Origin: Candidatus Competibacteraceae bacterium | GTDB lineage: Bacteria; Pseudomonadota; Gammaproteobacteria; Competibacterales; Competibacteraceae | Assembly: GCA_027492875.1 (NCBI GenBank) | Contig: JAPUDV010000112.1 | Location: forward strand, 2,773 to 37,068 | Length of the DNA stretch: 34,296 nucleotides | Direction: 5' to 3' | Shown: one piece after another, positions 12,805 through 32,906 of the stretch | Layout: each line of letters begins with the position of its first letter | Position numbering within the stretch: the stretch's first letter is position 1 | Program-made: the position numbers and the translations under genes | The notes under the pieces: generated by a model | Seen by the model: the letters and a program-made list of their open reading frames with translations, nothing else | What the model was told of the DNA's origin: nothing | Database searches by the model: none

Positions 12805-14223
12805 ATGCGTCATCTGCTGCTGTCCCTGCTGCGCGTCTTTGTCCTACTGCCATCGTATGGCCTGGTCTTGCTGGTGCGCCTGATCAAGTGGCTGATTGCC
12901 CCACCCCTCCTGCTGTTGCAACTGCTGTTTGGGACGCCGCTGGCGCTGTGGCGCGTCCGCCAGCCGCTACGACCGCGCTTCGTCCCGGTCCAGGAAGTGG
13001 AGCTACCCGACGCCGCTTGGCTCGCGCTCACCGATGCCGCCGAATCGCTGGCCGCAGCCGGCTTCACCCGCTGCAACGACTTTCGCAGCGACGACCTGAT
13101 CCAGGATGCGTGGCTGCGGCTGCTGGCGCAGTCGGAACAGGGCAGCGGCGCTCTGATCGCTCATATCCAGTTTGTGGCCGGTTCCCGCCCGCCGCACGAT
13201 TTCGTCGAGTTCTCGACCCAATTGCAAGACGGTCGGGTGCTAGCCACCAATAACCTGAACCTACCTTACAGCCTACCCCCACCGGCCTATATGGCGCGGC
13301 TACAATTGAAGGATGTCTGGGACCCACGAGCGCTGTACGCCCTGCACCGCAGGTTGTTGAACGCCTTGAAATCAGCGGTGGATCCAAACCCAGCCGCGCG
13401 GGCTGTCCGCGACCCGGCCGGTCTGCTGGCTGATGGTTACACCCGCGAAATCCAGGCGCTGATCGGACAAGGCTGGCTGCGAGCGGACCGGGACGGCGGC
13501 GCGGCCCGGCTGCGACTGCGGGCGGCGGCGGCAGGAGTCTGGCGTCAAGCCTGGCCGCTGGCCAGTCTGTACCTGCGGGCCGCCGACCGTCATGCCCGCC
13601 GCGTGCTGGCCAGCCATGGTATCGATGCGTCCGCCTTCGCCGGCGGCGCCACTGCCATCCTGGTCGACCGCCAGCCACTACCGGCTGAAACCGTGATCGA
13701 CACCGCCCGCGCCGGCTACCCAATAGTACGGCCAGTGGCCCAAGACGCCGCCCCCCGCGCGATGCTGGAAGCCGTGGTGGCGGAGTTGGACGGCGGGATC
13801 CAAGGCGCGATCAAGATCCGGGAACTGCGCTATGCCTTCTGCGGCTGCGAGGACTATCCGCAACGGCGCATCCGGCGGTTATACAGCTTCGACATCCTGC
13901 TCGACCCGACGGCCGGCCAACTCGCGGTGACCGCCGTGGATCGGGAGTTCGAGCAGGCGGCCGACGAGGCCGGATGGGACGAGCTGGCCGCCGCCACGCC
14001 GCTGGCCCCGCTGGTGCTGGGATCCTGGCTGCACGATCTCGACCGGGTGCTACCGTCGGTCCAGGCGGCGCTGGCCATCCGAGCCAGCGCGCTTGCCCTG
14101 GATTCGGCCTCGCTCCATGTGGACGAGCGCGGCACGACCTGCTGGCAGGTGGGTAGCCTGGGACTACAAAGACCGGCCCCTGCATGTGGTGGTGGACGCG
14201 CGTTCGGGTTTGATCGAGGATAA
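12805..14223 (+). CDS. unrecognised membrane-anchored protein, C-terminus apparently frameshifted
   Basis: I do not recognise the family. The 472-residue frame starts with a long hydrophobic N-terminus (about residues 2-50, including VFVLLPSYGLVLLVRLIKWLIAPPLLLLQ), enough for one or two membrane passes. A soluble region rich in Ala, Leu and Arg follows. A segment near the middle has HDFVEFSTQLQDGRVLATNNL. The C-terminal third contains KIRELRYAFCGCEDYPQRRIRRLYSFDILLDP and VDREFEQAADEAGWDEL. The last 22 residues of this frame look unnatural. Reading one base later from 14159 gives WDYKDRPLHVVVDARSGLIE and a stop at 14236, a far more plausible end. DUF1285 lies 14 bases upstream; qmcA follows after about 127 bases. 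Confidence 0.75.
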   Translation: MRHLLLSLLRVFVLLPSYGLVLLVRLIKWLIAPPLLLLQLLFGTPLALWRVRQPLRPRFVPVQEVELPDAAWLALTDAAESLAAAGFTRCNDFRSDDLIQDAWLRLLAQSEQGSGALIAHIQFVAGSRPPHDFVEFSTQLQDGRVLATNNLNLPYSLPPPAYMARLQLKDVWDPRALYALHRRLLNALKSAVDPNPAARAVRDPAGLLADGYTREIQALIGQGWLRADRDGGAARLRLRAAAAGVWRQAWPLASLYLRAADRHARRVLASHGIDASAFAGGATAILVDRQPLPAETVIDTARAGYPIVRPVAQDAAPRAMLEAVVAELDGGIQGAIKIRELRYAFCGCEDYPQRRIRRLYSFDILLDPTAGQLAVTAVDREFEQAADEAGWDELAAATPLAPLVLGSWLHDLDRVLPSVQAALAIRASALALDSASLHVDERGTTCWQVGSLGLQRPAPACGGGRAFGFDRG

Positions 14224-18345: not shown

Positions 18346-19878
18346 TCACAACGCAAACGGGTTGGTTCGATTTTCCGGTGGAATCTCGTAGACCGGCGCG
18401 GCGGCTGGCTCTTCCCCACCGCCGGACGCTCCCCGCCGCCGCCGTGCGGGTTGCCGCTCCTCCTCGACCGGACGGTGAAAAAATACCGCCGCCAACAAAG
18501 CCGCGAATACGGCGTTGGCCGGTATTCGCAGATTAAAATCTACCAGGGTATGCAACATCATCAACAGCAGCGCGATGCCGGCTCCGGCCTGAGCGAAACG
18601 CAGCGGCGTCCACTCGCCGCGTTTCCATACCCGCCCCCACTGGCGCAGGTAAAACACCAGCCAAATCGCAATGAGCAGCGCCGCCGCCAGCCCGAACTCG
18701 AGTAGCCATTCGAGGTAATCATTGTGGGCTCGATTGATGGTTACCCCCAGAAAATCCGCCGGGTGAAACCGCCGCAGCACGTCCTCGAAAGTGCCGCCGC
18801 CGCTGCCTAGCGGGAAGAATTCGCCGATCGCCTGGAGAGTGGCGTCGAAAATCCGCCAACGTCCGTCCTCGATCGGATCCGAATAGGCAAAGCGACTCCA
18901 TACCGGCGTCAATCCGATCAGCCCGGCCAACCCGACGCCAACCGTGGTGAAACTCCCCATCAGCCCGTAGGCGTTGCGTCCGCCCAACCGGGTCGAGAAC
19001 AGCGCGGTGCATAACAGAATGCCCAGCATCGCCAGACTGACCCCGGCGCGGGAGCGGGTGAACACCAACCCCAGCAGGATGATCAGCGCCACCGCGCCGT
19101 ACAGCGTCGCCTGATCGATCCGGCTCACGCTGAAGCGCGCCAGCCATTGGCGCACGGTCCGTTTGCGCCGGCCGCCGCCGATATGTCGGGGCAATCCGTG
19201 GCCGACCGTGGCCGCCAGCAGCGCCAAGGCCACCGGTAGCCCCATTTCCAGCAGACCCGCCAGATGGTTGCGGTTAACGTAGGTACCCGAGGCGTTGCCG
19301 CCCATCAGCGTGTTGCCAAACCGGAACGCGCTGTCCGCTCCATCGCCGTACTGAATCAAGCCCAGCAGCGCCTGAGCAGCGGCGATTCCCAGAAACACCT
19401 GCGCCAGCGCCAGCAGTTGCCGGCCGGACAGGCAGCTCGCCGCCACAAACACCGCCAGCGGCGGCAACAATGCCAGCCAAGCCGCCTCGGTCGAGGACGG
19501 AACCAGCGAAATCGCCCGCCAGTCGAAGCCGGCGACGACGCCCGAGCCAGCCAGACGCAGCGCCCCGGCATAGTATTCGCGTCCGGGCAAACCCGCCCAA
19601 AGCGCCAGCGGCACCGGCAACAACTGCATCAACGGCAGCAGAAAGAGCGCGATAAGGAACACCCGCACCGGCCGGGACAGCGCCGAGGGTTGAACCGGCC
19701 TCACTCCTCCCCAAACCAAACCGGCCAACAGCACCAGCGCCGCCAGCTCCATGACCAGCAACGGCAGCGGCTGGTTGCCACCCCAGTACAATGGCGCGAA
19801 CACCAGCAGGGCGGATAGCCCATAAAACAGAACCGCACCGCTTTCGGCGGCGCGGTTCGTGGTGGAACCCGACAGCAC
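18346..19878 (-). CDS. O-antigen ligase / Wzy-like polymerase membrane protein
   Basis: Polytopic membrane protein of 510 residues with ten or more hydrophobic segments, carrying the Wzy_C (O-antigen ligase) signature. The conserved region includes GNASGTYVNRNHLAGLLEMGLPV, FTRSRAGVSLAML and RAHNDYLEWLLEFGLAAALL with the HNDYLE motif in the large periplasmic loop. In an EPS locus this is the likely polymerase that joins lipid-linked repeat units, though a ligase role cannot be excluded. The start is GTG at 19878, with GGGGG a few bases upstream. The C-terminal tail is basic and proline-rich. It is the last gene of the minus-strand cluster, 33 bases after the FecR-like gene. Confidence 0.85.
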   Translation of the reverse strand: MLSGSTTNRAAESGAVLFYGLSALLVFAPLYWGGNQPLPLLVMELAALVLLAGLVWGGVRPVQPSALSRPVRVFLIALFLLPLMQLLPVPLALWAGLPGREYYAGALRLAGSGVVAGFDWRAISLVPSSTEAAWLALLPPLAVFVAASCLSGRQLLALAQVFLGIAAAQALLGLIQYGDGADSAFRFGNTLMGGNASGTYVNRNHLAGLLEMGLPVALALLAATVGHGLPRHIGGGRRKRTVRQWLARFSVSRIDQATLYGAVALIILLGLVFTRSRAGVSLAMLGILLCTALFSTRLGGRNAYGLMGSFTTVGVGLAGLIGLTPVWSRFAYSDPIEDGRWRIFDATLQAIGEFFPLGSGGGTFEDVLRRFHPADFLGVTINRAHNDYLEWLLEFGLAAALLIAIWLVFYLRQWGRVWKRGEWTPLRFAQAGAGIALLLMMLHTLVDFNLRIPANAVFAALLAAVFFHRPVEEERQPARRRRGASGGGEEPAAAPVYEIPPENRTNPFAL

Positions 19879-19911: not shown

Positions 19912-21006
19912 CTAGGGAGGAGTAGAAGAAGTAGCGGCCGTCGCGTCCTGATTGTTATTCGCTATGATGGCCGCACCGACCAGCACCCCACCCAGCACGG
20001 CGACGATGGTCCCGCCGCTAACGGTGCCCACCGCGGCAAGCCCGGCGCTGGTGGCGGTGGTTCCGCCCGTCCCAGCAACGCCAGCACCCGCCCGCAAACC
20101 CGCCACGCAAAGGCTCGATAGATCCTCGACCAGCACTCGCTCCTTCTCTCCCAACCGCGTCCGGCAGCCATCGAACACGACCACGACCCGGCTACCCGCT
20201 TCGGTGACGATCAGGTCGTCGCCCATGACAGGTCTTCTCGAACGCACTTGCGCCCGACCCTCTCCTTCGCCGACGAACACGTCACCCTTCGGCTGCTTCA
20301 ATCCCGCCACCAAGTCCTTGCCGGTTTTGGAACCATCCAAAACACCTTCCTTGCACCGGGCTCTTAATTCTTCGACCTTGACGCGCTCGCCGGGACCGAC
20401 TTCCACCTCGCAGCCTTTGAAAACCACAGTAAGCTCGCTGTCCTTCTCGGTGATCAACCGAGTGTCGTTCTGGACGCCCATGTTCTGCCGGGCCGGCGCC
20501 CGGACGCCGCGCTCTTCCACAAAGGTGCTGCCCTTTGGCTGTTCCAGCCGTGCGTCCCAGCCGCCGCCACCGGTTGTCGCGCCAGCGGCGTTCGCCCGTG
20601 GGGGATTGGCCGGTGAGGGACTGGCCTGGGCGGGACCGGGTGCCGCCGCCGGTAACGGACCCGCCTGACCGATCCGAGTATCCTGAAATCCGTCGATGGT
20701 GCGGACGCGAGCCTGGCTCTGGCGACATTGTCCGGGCTCCCCGATAGCCAGCAGACCGTTCTCGGGCACCGCCACCGCGCAGCCGTCCGGATACACGACT
20801 TCCGCCCGGCCGCCGGCGACCGCCACCACCCGGTTGCCGGCGTACAAGGGCAAGCCATCCTGGGCCGGCCCCATCGTCGTGGCTTGACCGACAAATACCC
20901 GCCCCTGCGACCGCCGCAGCACGGCCGAGGGCTCCATCGCGCTGGCCACGGCGGCGTATCCCGCCAAAACCAGCGCCAAACTCACAGTCATCGCTTGTGT
21001 TTTCAT
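19912..21006 (-). CDS. exported protein with three tandem FecR-like modules, each with a Cys pair
   Basis: Secreted or anchored protein of 364 residues. A signal peptide (residues 1-23, ending ASA) is followed by three related modules of about 60 residues: 33-94, 157-218 and 239-300. Each begins with G-x-x-F/V-V-G/E-like VFVG or TFVE, contains a strand of the type AEVVYPDGC, TVVFKGC or VVVFDGC, and ends with a second Cys 18-19 residues later (Cys76/94, 199/218, 281/300). The arrangement resembles FecR-type beta domains with an added disulfide. A Pro/Ala/Gly linker (115-150) separates modules 1 and 2. A glycine-rich hydrophobic stretch (332-349) near the C-terminus could anchor it. GAGGT before the ATG fixes the start. 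It lies between the TPR protein and the polymerase; its function is unknown. Confidence 0.8.
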   Translation of the reverse strand: MKTQAMTVSLALVLAGYAAVASAMEPSAVLRRSQGRVFVGQATTMGPAQDGLPLYAGNRVVAVAGGRAEVVYPDGCAVAVPENGLLAIGEPGQCRQSQARVRTIDGFQDTRIGQAGPLPAAAPGPAQASPSPANPPRANAAGATTGGGGWDARLEQPKGSTFVEERGVRAPARQNMGVQNDTRLITEKDSELTVVFKGCEVEVGPGERVKVEELRARCKEGVLDGSKTGKDLVAGLKQPKGDVFVGEGEGRAQVRSRRPVMGDDLIVTEAGSRVVVVFDGCRTRLGEKERVLVEDLSSLCVAGLRAGAGVAGTGGTTATSAGLAAVGTVSGGTIVAVLGGVLVGAAIIANNNQDATAATSSTPP

Positions 21007-21167: not shown

Positions 21168-22400
21168 CTAACCCTGCCGGCTGATCGCCAGATCGTCGAA
21201 CCAGACGCCGCCCTGAGCTTCGAAATCCAGTTCCGCCCGACCCTCCAGTTCCAGCCGCAACCATTGCACCGGGCAATCCGCCCCTGGAACGGTGAAATCC
21301 TGGGTGAAAGACTGCCAGTCGTCGGAACCGATAAAGGATGGACCCTCCGCCAGCAGTCGGTCGCCCGACTCGCCGCAGCGCACCGTCCAACGCAGGCCAC
21401 GCTCCGCCTGCAAGCCATCCGGACGCACCCGCCCTTGCAAGCGATAGCGGCCCGGCTCCAGATACAGCGGTTGCCGAACGTGCTGGAAACGCACCCGCTG
21501 GCCGTTGAAGGCCACATGCAGGGCTTTGCCGCCGCGGGTGCCGTAGGTCTCGGTGATTTCGACCAGCGCCCCGCTCGGCGTCGAAATACGCCAATCGAAA
21601 CCCAAACCGGTCACCGGCAGTTCGAAGCCGCCGTTATAGAGATTCCCCAAACCCTGTTGCTGGCGCTCGTCTAACCCGCTCAACCAGGCTAGATACGTCT
21701 CCAGCCAGTGTCCTTCCCGCCATAACCGCTCCAAGTAGACCTGCTGTTCGGCGACGCTGGGCAGTTTTCCACCACGCTCGCGGTTTCGATACAAAAAGAC
21801 CACCGCTTCCAGGTGCGCCGCCCGGGCCGCGACATAGGCGAAGAATCCGTTCCACCACGGCGGCGGATCGGCCAGCAGCGGCCGCAACAACGGGCGAGCC
21901 TCGGCGCTCTCGACCCAGCGCAGCAGCAGCGGATACAACTGATCGGCGGTTTCCGGCCGATTTCGCAGTAGCATATCCCAACGCGCCAGCGCCCGATCCG
22001 GCCGGCTCTGCGCCAGCCAGAATGCCGCCGAGCGGGCCAGCACCGGCGTGCGCATCGGCCCCAGCGCATCGGCCGTTTCCGCCAACGCGACCGCCGGCTG
22101 ACCGGCTCCCGCCCGCAGTTCGGCCAGCGCGAGATAGACCAGCGCATCGGTGGGATTGGCCCAAGCCGCCGCCTGCAACAGCCGCCCAGCGGCGGTCGGG
22201 TCGCGCCCGGCCAGCGCCAGACCCTGCCGGTACAGCGCCACCGGTTGGCCACCCCGCCAGCGCAGTGCGCCGGCGTCGGCTTCCGGCGTGTCCCGGCCGG
22301 CATAGTACTCGGCCAGCCCGGTCACCAACACCCGCCAGGCCAAAACCGCACCCAGCAGGGTCAGAACCGCCGCCCCGATCACCTTGTTCGTCACGGCCAT
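21168..22400 (-). CDS. membrane-anchored TPR-like protein with C-terminal jelly-roll domain
   Basis: Protein of 410 residues from the ATG at 22400, which has AAGGAA upstream; an in-frame GTG at 22442 would add 14 residues. An N-terminal transmembrane helix (about 7-29, VIGAAVLTLLGAVLAWRVLV) is followed by a helical, TPR-like region (about 52-240) with the ALYRQGLALAGRDPTAAGRLLQAAAWANPTDALVYLALAELRAG pattern. Residues 253-408 look like a carbohydrate-binding jelly-roll: it opens NLYNGGFELPVTGLGFDW, has ALHVAFNGQ and LEPGRYRLQGRVR, and ends GGVWFDDLAI, the common end of such domains. The topology puts both domains in the periplasm. It probably scaffolds the EPS assembly machine or binds polymer; that is inference from context. 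Confidence 0.78.
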   Translation of the reverse strand: MAVTNKVIGAAVLTLLGAVLAWRVLVTGLAEYYAGRDTPEADAGALRWRGGQPVALYRQGLALAGRDPTAAGRLLQAAAWANPTDALVYLALAELRAGAGQPAVALAETADALGPMRTPVLARSAAFWLAQSRPDRALARWDMLLRNRPETADQLYPLLLRWVESAEARPLLRPLLADPPPWWNGFFAYVAARAAHLEAVVFLYRNRERGGKLPSVAEQQVYLERLWREGHWLETYLAWLSGLDERQQQGLGNLYNGGFELPVTGLGFDWRISTPSGALVEITETYGTRGGKALHVAFNGQRVRFQHVRQPLYLEPGRYRLQGRVRPDGLQAERGLRWTVRCGESGDRLLAEGPSFIGSDDWQSFTQDFTVPGADCPVQWLRLELEGRAELDFEAQGGVWFDDLAISRQG

Positions 22401-22442
22401 GTCCGTGGATTCCTTCGGTCGTCGCGCGTTGCCACTTTCCAC

Positions 22443-24056
22443 TCAATGTCCGGGCCAGTCGTAATCGATGGCCACGATGGATGGCTGCCCGTCCCGCTTG
22501 CTCACTGCGAAGCGGATTGTGCCCGCCAACTGAATCGAAGCACCGGTATCACGCCGTCGCAACCACACTTCGTAGCGGCCGACGGCGCTGGCGGAGCCAC
22601 CGTTGTACGCCCAGCGCAGATCGTGCAATTGCATCCGCCGGATCCAGTGCGCGCCGAACAGCGTTCCGTAATCACGACGGATGCGGTCGAGGTCGACTCC
22701 CTCCTTGCCGCGGGCGTCGGCCGCGAACAGCGCCATCAATCTGTCCAGATCGCCGCGCCGGTAGGCATCGGCATAGCGCCCGATCAGTTCGTCCAGTTCC
22801 TGGATGGTTGGCGCACCGGCGTCCGGGGCGGCGGCCAACCGCGATTCGCCCGCCGGTTCCGCCTGCCGAACCGGCTCGGGTCGCACCCGTCCGAGCCGGG
22901 TTCGCTCGGCCTGTTCCCGCTCGGTCCGCAAGGCCTCGGCCAGCCGTTCGGCGCTGGCCTGCTCGGCTTGAAGTTCTTCCAGTTTCGCCTGCCCGGCCAC
23001 CAGCCGCTCGCTCCGTGCCTGTTCCGCTTGAGCCTGCTCGGCTTTCAACCGCTCCAGCTTCGCCTGCTCGGCCACCAGCCGCTCGCTCCAGATGCGTTCG
23101 GCGCGCAACTGTTCGGCACGCAACTGTTCTTCCAAGCGGGTCCGCTCCACCCGCATCTGTTCCAACAGCGCTTCATCAGCCGCCAGCCGCTCCCGGCGGG
23201 TCTGTTCCATGTGCTCCTGGGCGGCGCGGCTGTCGCTGGCCTGTTGGCGGGCGTGGCGCTCGCGCTGCCCCAGCGCCTGCCAGTCCGGCGCGGTCAGCAG
23301 CGCGGCGATGGCGCTACGGTCGGCGGAATCGGCGAACGACTCCGGCTCCGTGGCAACCGGGCCGGCGACGAGCGCGGGTCCGGTGGGCGCGGCGGCTTGC
23401 GGTCGGGTTTCATAAATGCCCCAAACCGCCAGCACCGCCGCCAAGGCAAACCCACCCAGCACCAAACCCGGCAGCCAGCGGCGCGGCGCGGCGGCCCGGG
23501 CACGACAACGGACGGACAGGCGCCGCCGCCGACCCGGGGGGTGCACCGGGGTCACTGGGGGAGATTCGGTTGGGCGGGTGGCAACCGGAACGATCACCCG
23601 TGACGGCGATTGCGACCGTCGGGCGTCGTAAGCCACGCGGGATTGGGGACGGGACAACACGGTCCAGGCTTCGTTGACCCGGCTGGCGAAATGATCGGTC
23701 CAGCCCTCGCCGCCGGTGCGGTCGGGGTGAAACAACCGCATCAGCAATCGGTGGTGTTCCTTAAGCTGTTGGACCGTCGCGCCGGGCTCGAGTCCCAACA
23801 CGCGGTAAAGACTGGCGTCGCGGGCGAAGCAAAGCTGCTGGACCAGAAACCGGGCGGCGGCGCACAGTTCGTCCACCTTGGCCCCGGTTTGACGGATGGC
23901 GCTCTCCAGCGTTTCCGGCGAACCGTTAGCCAGCCACAGCAGGCGGGTCATATCCGGCGGCAGCGGCGCGGCGGCAGCCAGACGGTCCTGATGGGACAGT
24001 GGGGCGCGGTAGCAGGCCAGCGCCAGCTCGAAGATATCGAGGCCGGGATCGGTCAT
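22443..24056 (-). CDS. J-domain / transmembrane / coiled-coil / NTF2-like fusion protein
   Basis: Unusual 537-residue protein. In order: an N-terminal helical region (1-78); a J domain (80-145) with the HPD motif at 110-112 in RLFHPDRTGG and the ending VAYDARR; a basic Pro-rich linker; one transmembrane helix (194-213, WLPGLVLGGFALAAVLAVWG); a long charged coiled coil (about 262-388) containing two 25-residue repeats beginning SERLVAEQAK (324) and SERLVAGQAK (349); and a SnoaL/NTF2-like domain (416-534, IQELDELIGRYADAYRRGDLDRLMALFAADA opening). With the basic linker inside, the J domain would be cytosolic and the rest periplasmic. The start is 10 bases after wzc. A functional HPD suggests DnaK recruitment; the target is unknown. 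Confidence 0.82.
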   Translation of the reverse strand: MTDPGLDIFELALACYRAPLSHQDRLAAAAPLPPDMTRLLWLANGSPETLESAIRQTGAKVDELCAAARFLVQQLCFARDASLYRVLGLEPGATVQQLKEHHRLLMRLFHPDRTGGEGWTDHFASRVNEAWTVLSRPQSRVAYDARRSQSPSRVIVPVATRPTESPPVTPVHPPGRRRRLSVRCRARAAAPRRWLPGLVLGGFALAAVLAVWGIYETRPQAAAPTGPALVAGPVATEPESFADSADRSAIAALLTAPDWQALGQRERHARQQASDSRAAQEHMEQTRRERLAADEALLEQMRVERTRLEEQLRAEQLRAERIWSERLVAEQAKLERLKAEQAQAEQARSERLVAGQAKLEELQAEQASAERLAEALRTEREQAERTRLGRVRPEPVRQAEPAGESRLAAAPDAGAPTIQELDELIGRYADAYRRGDLDRLMALFAADARGKEGVDLDRIRRDYGTLFGAHWIRRMQLHDLRWAYNGGSASAVGRYEVWLRRRDTGASIQLAGTIRFAVSKRDGQPSIVAIDYDWPGH

Positions 24057-24066
24057 GCCGTGCGCC

Positions 24067-26424
24067 TCACGCTTCCGCCTTCATCTCCTCGACCGGCAGT
24101 TTTTTGGTATCGGGCGTGGTCTCGCCGTAGTAACCGGTGTGGTAGTAGTAGTAATAGCTGCGGTAATACCCGTAGGCGCCGGGCCGGGCCTCCAGCTTGG
24201 TCAAGATGGTGCCCAATACGTGCACCCGCGCCCCGCGCAACCGTTTGAAAGCACCCTGCACGTAGCCACGAGGCGTACTGCCCATTTCCACGGTCAACAA
24301 GGTGCCTTCGCAAAGATTGCCGATGATCAGCGCGTCGGCCAAACCCAGCAGCGGGGGGCTATCCAACACCACCTGATCGAATTTCTCGGCGGCCAGCGTC
24401 AGCAACGCCACCATCCGGCCGGACGACAGCAGTTCGGCGGGGTTGGGCGGCAGCGGCCCGGACGGGATGGCGAACAGATTGGCGATGAGCGTAGGCCGGG
24501 TGATGTCGGCCGGCTGCACCTCCCCGCCGGCCAGGTAATTGGTCAACCCGGTCTGGTTGTCGAGCTTCAGGGTCTTGTGGAGCGAAGGCTTGCGCAGGTC
24601 GGCCTCGACCAGCAACGTCCGCTTGCCGGACTGGGCGAACTGGATGGCCAGGCTGACCGCCGTGGTGCTCTTACCCTCGCCGACCATGGCGCTGGTTACG
24701 GTCAGCAGCCGGGGCACGCCGCTGGCGGTCGAAAATTGCAGGGCGGTGCGCACCGAGCGGTAGGCTTCGGCGAAGGCCGAGCGCGGGTCGTCGTGGCCGA
24801 TCAGGGCGATGGGGCGCCCGTCGCCGCGCTCCTGTTTGGTCATCGGGATCACGCCCAGCACCGGCAGGCCCAGCAGCTTTTCCAGATCCTCGGGTTTGCG
24901 GAAGGTGTCGTCGAGATGCTCGAACAGGAAGGCCAAGCCGATCCCGCCCAGCAGGCCCAGGATCAGCGCCATCCAGGCGTTCTTGCGCAGGTTGGGCGTG
25001 TAGGGGGCGCCGGGCGCCTTGGCCTCGTCCACGATCGAGATGTTGTTGGTGCCGATCCCGGCCGCCACCCCGACTTCCTTGAAGCGCTGCAACAGCCCGT
25101 CGTACAGCTCGCGATTGGTATCCACCTCACGGCGCAGGATGTTGAACTGGATGCTGCGGCCTTGCAGCGCCAGCACTTCCTGCTTGAGCTGGTCGAGGTT
25201 GGCGCGCAGCAACGCTTCCTCGGCCTTGGCCGCCTCGTAGCTGGCGGTGATCGCCGCCCGAATGTTGCCGATTTCCAGGTTGATCATGTTGTCGACCTGG
25301 CCGATCTGGTTGCGCAGTTGCACCATGGTCGGATAGGCCGGCTTGTAGATGCTGAGGTTGTCCTGGTACTGGGTCTCCAACTTGGCCTTGGTCTGCTTGA
25401 GGTCCTGAATGATCTTGCTGTCCAATACCTGGCTCAGCCCCTGACCGCGGGTGCCCAGCATCTGCCGGTACATCGCCTCGGCGGCGATCCGCCGCTTTTC
25501 CGCCTCGCCCAGGGCGGCGTTGGTGGCCGACAGATTCTGGCCGACGATGCTCTCCTTTTCGCCGACGGTGATGATCTCTTCCCGGCGGGAAAAGTCGACC
25601 AACCCCCGTTCGGACTCCTCCAGCTTGGCCTTGACCTGCTGCAACCGCTCTTGCAGAAAGTTGCGGGCGTAGGTGGACGCATCGAAGCGCCGTTCCAGAT
25701 TCATGTTGATATAAGTCTTGGCCAGGGTATTAAGAACGGTGGCAGCCAACTTGGGGTCGGGGCTATCGTAGCGCAGGATGACCAGTCGCGACCTTGGCAC
25801 CGGCTCGACCGCCAAGCCGCCCAGGAACGCGCCGATGGCGCCCTCGACGCGGGCGGTTTCCGCCGAGGGCGCGGATTTTGCATCCTGTTTCCCGGATTCA
25901 ATCTCGGCGTCGCTGGTTTTCGGCAACCAACCGACCAACCAGCTCTTCAGTTGCGCGCCCAGCGAGGGCGGCGGCGGGGTGTCCGCCTGCCGGTCGGCCA
26001 GGCCCATCTGGTTGATCACCCGCAAAGCCAGGCTGCGACTCCTCAACAGTTCGTACTGGGTCTGGTAGTAATCCGGACTGCCGATCGAAGTATCGACCGA
26101 CCCCATCTGCTGGTTCTGGAAAACCCGGATATCCTCGCGGTCGATCTGCAAGGTCAGGCTGGCGCGGTAGATCGGGGTCTTCAGGTAGGTGGCGGTCACC
26201 ACCGCCGCGACCACGATGCCGGTAAAAATGAGGATGGTCCAGCGGCGCTTGAGAACGACCTGCCACAGTTCGCGGAGGTTGAAGCTTTCCCCCTCCGACT
26301 CTTCCTCGAAAGGCTGATAGTTCCGCGGCGGGGCCGCCATGGGAACGCCAACCTGGCGTTCGGTCAGGGCGCGTCCCGGCGGCTGAGAACTGGCCGGGTG
26401 TTGGGGCAATTCGGGAGTGTTCAT
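24067..26424 (-). CDS. wzc: Wzc-like polysaccharide co-polymerase and tyrosine autokinase
   Basis: Inner-membrane EPS chain-length regulator fused to a BY-kinase, 785 residues. An N-terminal cytosolic part leads to the first transmembrane helix (WTILIFTGIVVAAVVTATYL, about 61-80). A long periplasmic Wzz/GNVR region with coiled coils follows, then a second helix near WMALILGLLGGIGLAFLF. The cytosolic kinase has Walker A (MVGEGKSTT, about 578), Walker A' (LLVEADLRKP, about 605) and Walker B (VVLDSPPLLG, about 687). The C-terminus has ten Tyr within 16 residues, the autophosphorylation cluster. The start is ATG 26424; the codon before it is an in-frame TTG. Wza-like export protein lies 29 bases upstream. 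Phosphorylation cycling with the PHP phosphatase would control polymer export. Confidence 0.93.
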   Translation of the reverse strand: MNTPELPQHPASSQPPGRALTERQVGVPMAAPPRNYQPFEEESEGESFNLRELWQVVLKRRWTILIFTGIVVAAVVTATYLKTPIYRASLTLQIDREDIRVFQNQQMGSVDTSIGSPDYYQTQYELLRSRSLALRVINQMGLADRQADTPPPPSLGAQLKSWLVGWLPKTSDAEIESGKQDAKSAPSAETARVEGAIGAFLGGLAVEPVPRSRLVILRYDSPDPKLAATVLNTLAKTYINMNLERRFDASTYARNFLQERLQQVKAKLEESERGLVDFSRREEIITVGEKESIVGQNLSATNAALGEAEKRRIAAEAMYRQMLGTRGQGLSQVLDSKIIQDLKQTKAKLETQYQDNLSIYKPAYPTMVQLRNQIGQVDNMINLEIGNIRAAITASYEAAKAEEALLRANLDQLKQEVLALQGRSIQFNILRREVDTNRELYDGLLQRFKEVGVAAGIGTNNISIVDEAKAPGAPYTPNLRKNAWMALILGLLGGIGLAFLFEHLDDTFRKPEDLEKLLGLPVLGVIPMTKQERGDGRPIALIGHDDPRSAFAEAYRSVRTALQFSTASGVPRLLTVTSAMVGEGKSTTAVSLAIQFAQSGKRTLLVEADLRKPSLHKTLKLDNQTGLTNYLAGGEVQPADITRPTLIANLFAIPSGPLPPNPAELLSSGRMVALLTLAAEKFDQVVLDSPPLLGLADALIIGNLCEGTLLTVEMGSTPRGYVQGAFKRLRGARVHVLGTILTKLEARPGAYGYYRSYYYYYHTGYYGETTPDTKKLPVEEMKAEA

Positions 26425-26453
26425 CAAGCGCTGGATCAGGTAGGGGTTCTGTT

Positions 26454-27245
26454 TCAGGGGGCGATAAGCCAGAACGGCAGGACGAATTCCATGATTTCCT
26501 TGGCGGTGGCCTTGAATCCCGACGTTTCGACGTGGACGACGTCCTCACCGAGTACTTCGGGATCCGGCGCCTTGCCGTCGCGGATCGCCTCCAGATCGTA
26601 TTGCCGCATTTTGCGCATGCCGTCCGGCTCGGAGCGCAGCACCATGGCCGTGCCGGTCGCCACGTTGGTCGTGCCGCCGGCGCCGGCCACCACCTGCAAC
26701 AGGGTGGTCCGTCCCTTGAGCGGATACACGCCCGGACTCTTGACCGAACCCACCACCGTGGCCCGCTGGCTGGTGAATTCCTCAATGAAAATGGTGACTT
26801 GTGGATTCTGCAGATAGTCCTTGGCCAACCGGGTTGCGATATCGGCCGCCAGTTGCTCGCCCGTCCGGCCCGCCGCCTGCACCAGGCCGACCAGCGGCAG
26901 GGAGATCTGACCTCGGGAGTTGACTCGAACCGAACGGTTCAGACTCTCGACGCCAAACACCTCGACCTTCAGTAAATCCTGCGGGCCGATGAAATAGTCG
27001 CTCGGCGCCTCGACCGGCGCGGTGGCGATCGCCGACGTTGGAGGCGCACCCGCCACCGCAACGGGAGCGGCGGATACCTGGACCATGGCGGCCACGGGAC
27101 GCGACGCAGCGGCCGGATCGGCGGGCGTGGAAACCGGCGCGGCGGCGGCCGGATCGGCGGTGGGCGACGTACCGGCGCATCCAGCGACGCCAAGGAAAAC
27201 CATCCACAGCACCGTCATCCCCGCAAACACTTTCTCAGCCCGCAC
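26454..27245 (-). CDS. polysaccharide export lipoprotein, Wza/OPX family (short form)
   Basis: Outer-membrane-associated export protein of 263 residues. A lipoprotein signal is visible (WMVFLGVAG then C). An Ala/Pro-rich linker (about 25-80) precedes the polysaccharide export domain, which starts DYFIGPQDLLKVEVFGVESLNRSVRVNSRGQISLPLVG, and one SLBB domain (ATVVGSVKSPGVYPLKGRTTLLQVVAGAGG). It is shorter than E. coli Wza (about 379) and has one clear SLBB repeat, as in the EpsE/short OPX proteins that pair with Wzc-type kinases. The start is GTG at 27245 with GAGG upstream. Its place between the phosphatase and the kinase is the usual order. Confidence 0.9.
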   Translation of the reverse strand: MRAEKVFAGMTVLWMVFLGVAGCAGTSPTADPAAAAPVSTPADPAAASRPVAAMVQVSAAPVAVAGAPPTSAIATAPVEAPSDYFIGPQDLLKVEVFGVESLNRSVRVNSRGQISLPLVGLVQAAGRTGEQLAADIATRLAKDYLQNPQVTIFIEEFTSQRATVVGSVKSPGVYPLKGRTTLLQVVAGAGGTTNVATGTAMVLRSEPDGMRKMRQYDLEAIRDGKAPDPEVLGEDVVHVETSGFKATAKEIMEFVLPFWLIAP

Positions 27246-27287: not shown

Positions 27288-28094
27288 TCAGTACCGACCC
27301 AACCATTTACCCAACATCGTCTTGACCGACTGCATCCATGGCGCGGTTGAAACCAACCCCGGCAGCGCCGGCATTCGATCCGGTTCGATATTATCCAGTA
27401 TACCTTTAGGGCGCGTCCGCACCAGATACGTCGCCTCTTCCGCGCCCAGCCAGCACTCCGCCGCGCGCTGCCCCTCCGCCAACAGCGGCGGTCGCCGATC
27501 CGCGCCATGCGAATCGGTGGCCAAAATGTGAACCCAGCCTTCATCCAGCAACCGCTCGCCCCAATATTGCGCCGCTGGACCGAATCGGCCGGTCAGGCTG
27601 CCGGCGGTCACTTGCAGCCAGGCGCCCCTACGCACCAGTTCCACGAAAGCGCCGTAATGGTCCTCGATCCAGCTCAAGCGCTCGGGGTGGGTGATCACCG
27701 GCACGTAGCCGGCGGTCAACAGGTCGAACACGGTTTCGCCCAGGCGCGGCGGCGCCACATGATGCGGCGGCTCCAACAGGAAATAGCGGCCGCCGTGCAG
27801 CGACGGCACCCGGCCGGAGCGCAGGCCGTCCACCAAATCCCGCGCGAGATGGGTATCGGCGCCGTGGGTCAGCCGCAGCGGAATATCGGCATCGATCAGC
27901 CGGCGCTGGAGTTCCGCCACCGCCCGGCGGATGGACGGACCGTCGTTCTCGTACAAGCCCGGATAAATGTGCGGCGTGCAGGCGACGATTTCGATGCCAT
28001 CGGCAACGGCGATGCGGGCCATGGCCAGCGCGGTTTCCAGGTCCGGTGCCCCATCGTCGATCCCCGGTAACAGATGGCAGTGCAAGTCGATCAT
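27288..28094 (-). CDS. PHP-family protein-tyrosine phosphatase (CpsB/YwqE type)
   Basis: Metal-dependent phosphotyrosine phosphatase of 268 residues. The PHP motifs are clear: DLHCHLLPGIDDGA at the N-terminus, CTPHIYPG, a HGADTHL segment, VITHPERL and ATDSHGADRR near the end, with His and Asp metal ligands. In capsule systems this family dephosphorylates the tyrosine cluster of the BY-kinase, here presumably the Wzc-like protein encoded two genes downstream. No low-molecular-weight (Wzb-type) phosphatase is present in the cluster. The ATG at 28094 gives the conserved start MIDLHCH. The 42-base gap to the export lipoprotein suggests one transcript. Confidence 0.9.
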   Translation of the reverse strand: MIDLHCHLLPGIDDGAPDLETALAMARIAVADGIEIVACTPHIYPGLYENDGPSIRRAVAELQRRLIDADIPLRLTHGADTHLARDLVDGLRSGRVPSLHGGRYFLLEPPHHVAPPRLGETVFDLLTAGYVPVITHPERLSWIEDHYGAFVELVRRGAWLQVTAGSLTGRFGPAAQYWGERLLDEGWVHILATDSHGADRRPPLLAEGQRAAECWLGAEEATYLVRTRPKGILDNIEPDRMPALPGLVSTAPWMQSVKTMLGKWLGRY

Positions 28095-31160: not shown

Positions 31161-32906
31161 TTACGTCCTGCTCACCACCCACTCGCCCAGCACCAACAGA
31201 TCCATGTGGGTGCGCAGGAAACAGTCGAGTGCTTCCTCGGGTCGGCACACCACCGGTTCGTTCTCGTTGAACGAGGTGTTGAGCACCATCGGCACCCCGG
31301 TCAGGTCGCGGAAGGTTTCGATCAGGCGGTGGTACAGCGGGTTGGTGGCGCGGTGGACGGTCTGCAAGCGGCCGGAGCCATCGACATGGGTAACGGCGGG
31401 AACGAGCGGGCGCTTCTCCTCTCGAATCTGGAAGACCTGCATCATGAACGGCACCTCGTCCTCGTCCTCGAACCAGTCGGCCACCGCTTCGCGCAGGATG
31501 GAGGGCGCGAACGGCCGAAACGATTCGCGGCGTTTGATCTTGCGGTTGAGGATGTCCTTCATGTCGGGCCGCCGTGGATCGCAGACGATGGAGCGATTGC
31601 CCAGCGCTCGCGGCCCCCACTCCATCCGCCCCTGGAACCAGCCGACCACTTGCCCGTCCGCCACCGCCCGCGCGGTCAGCCGGCATCGTTCCTCCACGTC
31701 GGCGATCCGCTCCACCCGGCAGTGCTGGGTTTTCAGCTCCTCACGCCGCATCTCCAGCGCCTCGCCGAGTTCGGCCTCGCCGAACCGGGGTCCCCAGTAG
31801 GCATGATCCATGTGAAAGCGCGGCCCGGCGGCATTGAGTCGGTGCCAGGTCACGAAGGCCGCGCCGATGGCTCCACCGGCGTCGCCGGCCGCCGACTGGA
31901 CGTAAACCTGGCGGAACGGCGTCATGCGCCGCACCTTGCCGTTGGCCACCGAGTTCATGCCGCAACCGCCAGCGATAGCAACGGCGTCGAGCCGATGGCG
32001 GGCGTGCAACGTGTCGAGCAGATGAAAAAACGCTTCTTCGTACAGGGCCTGGACCGACCGGGCGATATCGTGGTGGCGCGACTCCAGCGGCTGATCCGGA
32101 GCGCGGGCCGGGCCGAGCAGGTCTTCCAGCGCCGGGCTGTATAACCGGCCGACGGTCGGGGAGCCATCGGACCATTCATAGTCGATCTTTTCGCGATGGT
32201 GACGGAAGTAGTCCAGATTCAGGCGGAAACCGCCACCGTCTTCCAGCCGGACGATGCGGCGCATGGCGTCCAGATGGCGCGGTTCACCGTAGGGCGCCAA
32301 CCCCATGACCTTGTACTCGTCTCCGTAGTGGGGAAAGCCAAGATACTGAGTTAGGGCTTGATAAAAGATGCCGAGCGAGTGCGGGAAATAGACCTGGTCC
32401 TCGACCTCGATTCGCGCACCCCGCCCCACGCCCCAGGCGGCGCTGGCGAAATCGCCAAAGCCATCCACCGACACCACGACCGCTTCCGGAAAGGGCGAGA
32501 CATGGAAGGCCGAAGACAGATGGGCGAGGTGGTGCTCGACGGCGTGGACCTGGCCGCTGAAATGCGGGCCGGGGAAGGCACGGGCCAGATGTTCGGCAAC
32601 GCTGGCGCGTTCCTGCTTATTGCGCAACCGATCCAGCACCAGACCAAGGTCGGGACGATGAGCCAGGGTGTAACCGATCTTTTTCCATAGATGGGCGGTG
32701 CGATCCTGATTGACGGCGAGGTGATCGATGGCATCCAAGCCGATGCCGGCTTCGCGCAGGCAGTAGCGGATCGCCTCGCCGGGGAAGCCGGCCCAGTGCT
32801 TGACGCGGCGGAAACGCTCTTCCTCCGCCGCCGCGACAAGCTGGCCATCGCGCACCAGGCAGGCGGCGGAGTCACCGTGGAAAGCGTTAAGGCCGAGGAT
32901 CAGCAT
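31161..32906 (-). CDS. carbamoyltransferase, NodU/CmcH family
   Basis: O-carbamoyltransferase of 581 residues, standard for the family. The N-terminal Kae1-like half opens LILGLNAFHGDSAACLVRDGQLVAAAEEERF and holds the metal-binding histidines in VEHHLAHLSSAF, VSVDGFGD and EYKVMGLAPYG. The C-terminal domain has GQVVGWFQGRMEWGPRALGNRSI and the VLNTSFNENEPVV segment. These enzymes move a carbamoyl group from carbamoyl phosphate, via carbamoyl-adenylate, to a sugar hydroxyl. In this locus it probably decorates the EPS repeat unit or its precursor. AAGGA lies upstream of the ATG at 32906. It follows galE by 62 bases. Confidence 0.93.
   Translation of the reverse strand: MLILGLNAFHGDSAACLVRDGQLVAAAEEERFRRVKHWAGFPGEAIRYCLREAGIGLDAIDHLAVNQDRTAHLWKKIGYTLAHRPDLGLVLDRLRNKQERASVAEHLARAFPGPHFSGQVHAVEHHLAHLSSAFHVSPFPEAVVVSVDGFGDFASAAWGVGRGARIEVEDQVYFPHSLGIFYQALTQYLGFPHYGDEYKVMGLAPYGEPRHLDAMRRIVRLEDGGGFRLNLDYFRHHREKIDYEWSDGSPTVGRLYSPALEDLLGPARAPDQPLESRHHDIARSVQALYEEAFFHLLDTLHARHRLDAVAIAGGCGMNSVANGKVRRMTPFRQVYVQSAAGDAGGAIGAAFVTWHRLNAAGPRFHMDHAYWGPRFGEAELGEALEMRREELKTQHCRVERIADVEERCRLTARAVADGQVVGWFQGRMEWGPRALGNRSIVCDPRRPDMKDILNRKIKRRESFRPFAPSILREAVADWFEDEDEVPFMMQVFQIREEKRPLVPAVTHVDGSGRLQTVHRATNPLYHRLIETFRDLTGVPMVLNTSFNENEPVVCRPEEALDCFLRTHMDLLVLGEWVVSRT

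Follow-up and report, generated by a model that had tools for sequence, protein, structure and literature searches.

A wzc-linked, membrane-anchored J-domain protein from a Competibacteraceae polysaccharide operon as a candidate co-chaperone of Wzc-type machines

The window, that is, the whole stretch of 34,296 nucleotides of Candidatus Competibacteraceae DNA analyzed here, encodes on its reverse (-) strand an array of genes in the order CpsB/CapC, Wza, Wzc, J-domain gene, Y424, X364 and Wzy. Its nearest named relatives, Ca. Competibacter phosphatis among them, likewise place it in a genome of the Competibacteraceae. The CpsB/CapC-family protein (27288..28094; Pfam CpsB_CapC, 1.6e-48) belongs to the family of PHP-type tyrosine phosphatases, and is followed by a Wza-type outer-membrane polysaccharide export protein (26454..27245; Pfam Poly_export and SLBB) and a Wzc-type tyrosine autokinase (24067..26427; Pfam Wzz, GNVR and AAA_31; NCBIfam TIGR01007), which has 10 tyrosines among its last 40 residues. 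Further downstream lie X364, a predicted exported member of a block conserved in synteny (19912..21006), with a weak match to an NCBIfam LapA-retention model, and a Wzy/O-antigen ligase-like polymerase (18346..19878; Pfam Wzy_C, 6.5e-15). The assignment of the locus to the Wzx/Wzy type rests on the Pfam matches of Wza, Wzc, Wzy and the CpsB-family gene, and these bear out the exopolysaccharide setting proposed for it in a first-pass annotation. That annotation had also placed the start of the J-domain gene ten bases after the kinase gene; the measured distance between the wzc stop, ending at 24067, and the ATG is indeed 10 bp, and a GAGG motif positioned 8 nt ahead of this ATG overlaps the stop. 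Elsewhere in the window, a carbamoyltransferase is encoded at 31161-32906 (Pfam, 9.9e-73 and 4.3e-54); a Bradyrhizobium polysaccharide locus likewise has a carbamoyltransferase gene, upstream.

The J-domain gene (22443..24056, ATG start) codes for a protein of 537 aa, whose parts we delineated from the translation, Pfam and an AF2 model built from 4 sequences (mean pLDDT 71.9). At the N-terminus is a helical module (hereinafter the N-module; residues ~6-80, 23817..24041), which was delimited by the alignments A1-A3 and modeled as helices spanning 8-76 with pLDDT mostly ~80; it defines the family and was absent from the earlier domain list. It is followed by a J domain (residues ~81-145, 23622..23816), recovered by Pfam DnaJ at residues 83-144 (E 2.4e-12) and by a profile match to DnaJ structures including 5NRO, with an HPD motif at 110-112 and J helices modeled at 83-135; by eye, some of the residues of DnaJ helix II are unmatched in it. 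Residues 139-251 are of low confidence in the model and contain the one hydrophobic segment (~196-216, 23409..23471) that hydropathy marks as a transmembrane helix. The 21 residues before it hold 9 K/R and 0 D/E, and the 28 after it 1 K/R and 3 D/E; this charge bias points to an N-in orientation, whereby the J domain is predicted to be cytosolic and the C-terminus periplasmic by the positive-inside rule. The C-terminal domain (residues ~416-537, 22446..22811) has the alpha+beta fold of the NTF2-like superfamily: Pfam SnoaL_2 matches at 427-524 (E 6.6e-6) with 27.1 bits, barely above the cut-off of 27.0, the fold is modeled at 418-532 with pLDDT ~90, and VIA-align comparisons with solved NTF2-like, ketosteroid isomerase and SnoaL structures give Z-scores of 14.6-16.9 over 107-123 residues. 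In the Pfam scan of the 537-aa protein, nothing beyond DnaJ and SnoaL_2 rose above the cut-off. Thus, the HPD-bearing J domain, the single membrane helix and the NTF2-like domain named in the first-pass annotation all stand, with both folds predicted.

The fourth element of that description, a long coiled coil, holds only as regards the long helix. A single helix is modeled at residues 259-387 (22896..23282; pLDDT ~90), but the periodicity of its hydrophobic residues does not exceed that of shuffled sequences (206 and 723 of 1000 were equally high); as heptads are not apparent, "long charged helix" is the safer label. It contains a 75-bp (25-aa) tandem repeat, and it is not conserved, since the corresponding region of two relatives (G052, G386) is a Pro-richer spacer, and Pro/Ala-rich or other spacers replace it in the distant members of the family. 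We also considered and rejected a fixed periplasmic ruler: the arm measures 51-377 residues across the family (115-377 in the wzc-linked forms with NTF2-like domains) and is altered by repeats.

A profile made from residues 1-150 (A2), searched against 369 genomes of the gammaproteobacterial class, recovered the N-module and J unit in about twenty places, in ORFs of ~560-1380 aa; ordinary DnaJ proteins match this profile over the J part alone. A wider profile (A3) extended the unit to a second class of the phylum (G482, G729), and in the order of G482 it occurs in 11 of the 150 genomes. The second-class form is a small protein lacking the NTF2-like domain and is cytosolic or merely tail-anchored. 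The N-module is common to the family, being partial in variants of the L095 type, and it is conserved at 36-81% identity to the relatives as against 45-85% for the J domain, both above the spacers. The N-module is matched by no sequence family of NCBIfam, Pfam or PDB; it was searched within longer queries, such that its fold could still be a known one. No relatives of the window protein were found on viral contigs, and the PLSDB plasmids searched with it yielded only a DnaJ. Our literature search on J domains with EPS or wzc, and on Competibacter EPS, found no description of the family, of the N-module or of the tie to wzc, with an earlier mention being possible in the J-protein domain survey of Barriot et al. 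2020; the parts themselves are of known kinds. The genome of the window also has a second HPD-bearing J protein (L003, G000:C113; 531-aa ORF), which has an N-terminal J domain and no N-module, and, by eye, a dnaK gene adjoining a DnaJ-type match at L004.

The most consistent feature of the wzc-linked members is their position. The wzc gene lies directly upstream of the J gene in the window and in 9/9 close relatives (Competibacteraceae and G052), in four further genomes (G386, G133, G311, G211), in 11 of the 12 second-class loci (L100, L101 and 9/10 further) and in Bradyrhizobium; in the second-class exception (L127), the J gene adjoins CpsB. On the Bradyrhizobium plasmid, an export protein is followed by a tyrosine autokinase and then, after 5 bp, by a DnaJ domain-containing protein, a hypothetical protein that is a relative of Y424, and O-antigen ligase. 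In each of the 25 wzc-linked loci that were measured, the two genes lie on one strand and are mostly -4 to 30 bp apart, whereas two loci without HPD have gaps of 101 and 309 bp; these distances are read from ORFs of which some have over-extended starts. An apparent fusion of 1125 aa in L077 proved to be a wrong-frame ORF continuing through wzc, the two genes being separate. The first-pass annotation had held that recurrent linkage to wzc and wzy would speak for a dedicated role, and such linkage was recovered far beyond chance in two classes of Pseudomonadota, establishing that the J gene occupies the same operon position in both. The Wzc partners of the J proteins retain their Tyr-rich tails. 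In a search for a docking site on Wzc, 21 alignment columns, 6 of them within 707-759, distinguished 8 operons with the J gene from 3 without it, but these operons are too few and too closely related for the columns to be interpreted.

The gene on the other flank is a comparably steady companion. Y424 (21168..22442), characterized here through synteny, co-occurrence, AF2 and Foldseek, is a membrane-anchored protein with a TM helix, TPR-like helices and a C-terminal beta domain; a low-confidence model of it (pLDDT 63.7) has a Foldseek match to CBM4-type modules, and one of its relatives has a weak Pfam match. The CBM4-like match would fit periplasmic polysaccharide handling. Y424 follows the J gene in 24 of the 25 wzc-linked loci (L122 is the exception). 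Among 59 relatives, all 10 genomes that carry the J gene also have Y424, as do 2 that lack the J gene; in the order of G482, it is found in all 11 J carriers and in 9 further genomes (Fisher 1.1e-11), though in 2 of these 11 carriers it is not adjacent to the J gene. The converse does not hold: in two Competibacteraceae operons otherwise matching that of the window, the J gene is cleanly missing, with wzc and Y424 overlapping by 4 bp in one (L137) and separated by a 93-bp gap in the other (L138), and genome G024 has a second block (L139) that likewise lacks it. Its absence from sister operons marks the J gene as accessory rather than a core part; the wzc-Y424 block is stable and the J gene an optional insertion within it, whose product would modulate the polysaccharide machine without being essential for it. 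These data also bear on whether the protein might serve the folding or quality control of other members of the machine, such as Wzy, Y424 or the Wza precursor, in place of Wzc. Its restriction to Y424 carriers, both in the second-class order and among the 59 relatives, is in keeping with this, as is the service of membrane-anchored J proteins to membrane assemblies (PMC10754441). However, most of Y424 and of Wzy lies in the periplasm or within the membrane, beyond the reach of cytosolic DnaK after insertion, and the operons without the J gene retain both; hence, we regard these alternative clients as rather improbable.

The HPD motif is intact in 22/22 rows of the window's clade (moderate support, 85/68), the short NTF2-less forms included, and in G052. 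It is lost in the 27 other rows, two of which (L076, L081) have QPD; these rows include three wzc-linked loci that occupy the same place in the operon (G133, G311, G211), one of which holds two degenerate J copies. Linkage to wzc is seen in 22 of 23 rows with HPD and 4 of the 27 others (Fisher 3.4e-9), an association that is not independent of descent, as the tree implies only about two changes of HPD status; with independent pairs, of which there are 3, p = 1. The intact motif throughout the clade fits DnaK recruitment at Wzc. The three HPD-less loci at the same position imply that this position can be filled without canonical triggering of DnaK, and they lend some weight to the main rival reading, namely that the N-module and J fold form a DnaK-free protein-binding adaptor for Wzc and Y424, with the HPD being a remnant in some lineages. 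The loss of HPD in other gammaproteobacterial relatives, and fusions to an XrtA-type ATPase, a receiver domain and FHA domains that resemble adaptor use, would agree with such a scaffold. A remnant, however, should decay, yet the motif is kept in every member of a clade that spans two classes, and we accordingly consider this reading unlikely, if less so than that of the alternative clients.

Relatives located elsewhere are often beside other polysaccharide genes: CpsB (L076), a sugar transferase (L082, L083), a polysaccharide deacetylase (L095), or YjbH, SLBB export and Wzz genes (L078, L079, L085, L086, L089). The profiles and Pfam scans used found no polysaccharide marker near L081, L087, L090, L091, L093, L094, L102 and L104. 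The random placement away from EPS genes that the first-pass annotation had set against a dedicated role is hence seen in part of the wider HPD-less family and not in the window's clade. Several of these relatives are elaborated by additional domains. An ATPase domain, AAA_22 in those scanned, precedes an N-module/J/TM/NTF2 unit without HPD in L085 (8273-11956), L081, L084, L086, L089, L090, L093, L094 and L105; L081 and L090 are not beside YjbH, SLBB export or Wzz genes, unlike L085, L086 and L089. In a wzc-linked protein (L080, 9585-12101), a response-regulator receiver domain (Pfam, 1.6e-20) separates the degenerate J domain from the TM helix, and the same operon has a separate small gene (13598-14128) for an NTF2-like protein similar to the corresponding domain in the J protein. 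In L102 (8072-9850), the N-module and J-like region is followed by two FHA domains (Pfam, 1.7e-38), with no TM or NTF2 segment found. L095, L104 and L106 have a different C-terminal region with no NTF2 match, its end having by eye a phosphate-binding-type look that Pfam did not confirm; L095 is near a TPR/polysaccharide deacetylase gene.

Remodeling of protein assemblies is a normal task of Hsp70. Wzc, for its part, cycles between a dephosphorylated octamer and phosphorylated monomers, a cycle proposed to regulate polymerization and export (PMC8285477), and DjlA, itself anchored in the membrane, cooperates with DnaK in acting on Rcs partners, for which it needs the His of its J domain, the H233Q mutant failing (PMC11709261), and boosts the assembly and/or capacity of AcrAB-NodT (PMC10754441). 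Taken together, the Wzc cycle, Hsp70 remodeling and the DjlA precedent favor DnaK recruitment to Wzc, with the DnaK-free scaffold as the main rival. Hence, we propose, at about even odds, that the window protein belongs to the class C J-domain co-chaperones and is dedicated to polysaccharide machines of the Wzc type, recruiting DnaK to Wzc on the cytosolic face. The class is given by the J fold with HPD and the lack of the zinc finger or C-terminal DnaJ domains of classes A and B in the Pfam scans, with partial DnaJ-model matches covering the J domain only. Briefly, the N-module might act as a docking element that positions the J domain against Wzc, either at its cytosolic kinase ring or at its Tyr-rich tail. 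There, DnaK would be recruited and triggered by the HPD loop, and might help Wzc pass between the phosphorylated-monomer and dephosphorylated-octamer states, or keep it competent for assembly. In the gammaproteobacterial forms, the anchor, spacer and periplasmic NTF2-like domain probably tie the protein to periplasmic partners, e.g., Y424 or Wza. DnaK binding, Wzc as the client, the octamer/monomer step and the partner of the NTF2 domain are what we infer in this scheme. The earlier suggestion of a chaperone link across the inner membrane to the polysaccharide machine gains from the wzc linkage and the HPD, but spanning of the membrane is not part of the shared core, because the second-class protein is cytosolic or tail-anchored and lacks the NTF2-like domain.

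The proximity to wzc admits a reversed relationship too, in which the J domain would bring DnaK to Wzc as a substrate for phosphorylation, coupling polysaccharide synthesis to the stress response. The immediate linkage of the J gene to wzc, the Tyr-rich nature of the kinases and the phosphorylation of Bacillus subtilis DnaK at Y601 by the BY-kinase PtkA, which matters for chaperone activity (PMC4835898), could be read in this way. However, PtkA represents a different BY-kinase arrangement in another organism, and the CpsB-family gene of the operon suggests control of autophosphorylation as the main output, leaving such a role highly improbable.

If the co-chaperone reading is true, an ATP-powered chaperone step would be added to the kinase/phosphatase cycle of Wzc. 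To our knowledge, the take-down and rebuilding of the Wzc ring during export have so far been explained by phosphorylation alone, through kinase and phosphatase; Wzc-type machines may thus have a dedicated chaperone helper of their own. The broader form of the claim, in which Wzc machines across two classes of Pseudomonadota have an Hsp70 co-chaperone dedicated to them, with DnaK powering disassembly or reassembly of the ring, is possible but doubtful. A conserved, wzc-linked and HPD-intact J protein that is naturally missing from sister operons makes the chaperone role directly testable, and the relatives without HPD form a natural series in which the possible conversion of a J domain into an adaptor could be followed.

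Among known systems, the class C protein DjlA of E. coli and Caulobacter is alike in combining a cytosolic J domain with one transmembrane anchor, in its DnaK-dependent action on a membrane system controlling capsule (PMC11709261) and in serving as a co-chaperone of a trans-envelope pump (PMC10754441). It differs in that its anchor is N-terminal and its J domain C-terminal, and in having a TerB-like domain; the window protein has instead the N-module, J domain, anchor, spacer and periplasmic NTF2-like domain, placing it outside DjlA proper, and its gene, unlike that of DjlA, is inside a polysaccharide operon. DjlB and DjlC, the tail-anchored partners of HscC, resemble the short J proteins with a C-terminal anchor (L120, L128, L129 and Bradyrhizobium WP_280978429.1), but are encoded near hscC and not wzc (PMC8215388). 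The C-terminal domain shares its fold with the NTF2-like, SnoaL and ketosteroid isomerase domains, and is here predicted to be periplasmic, on the membrane arm of a J protein. Finally, the XrtA/PEP-CTERM-associated ATPase TIGR03015 is in some relatives fused ahead of the N-module/J/TM/NTF2 unit (L085, E 1.5e-107), an association that sets these apart from the window protein and the wzc-linked loci examined, from which this ATPase is absent.
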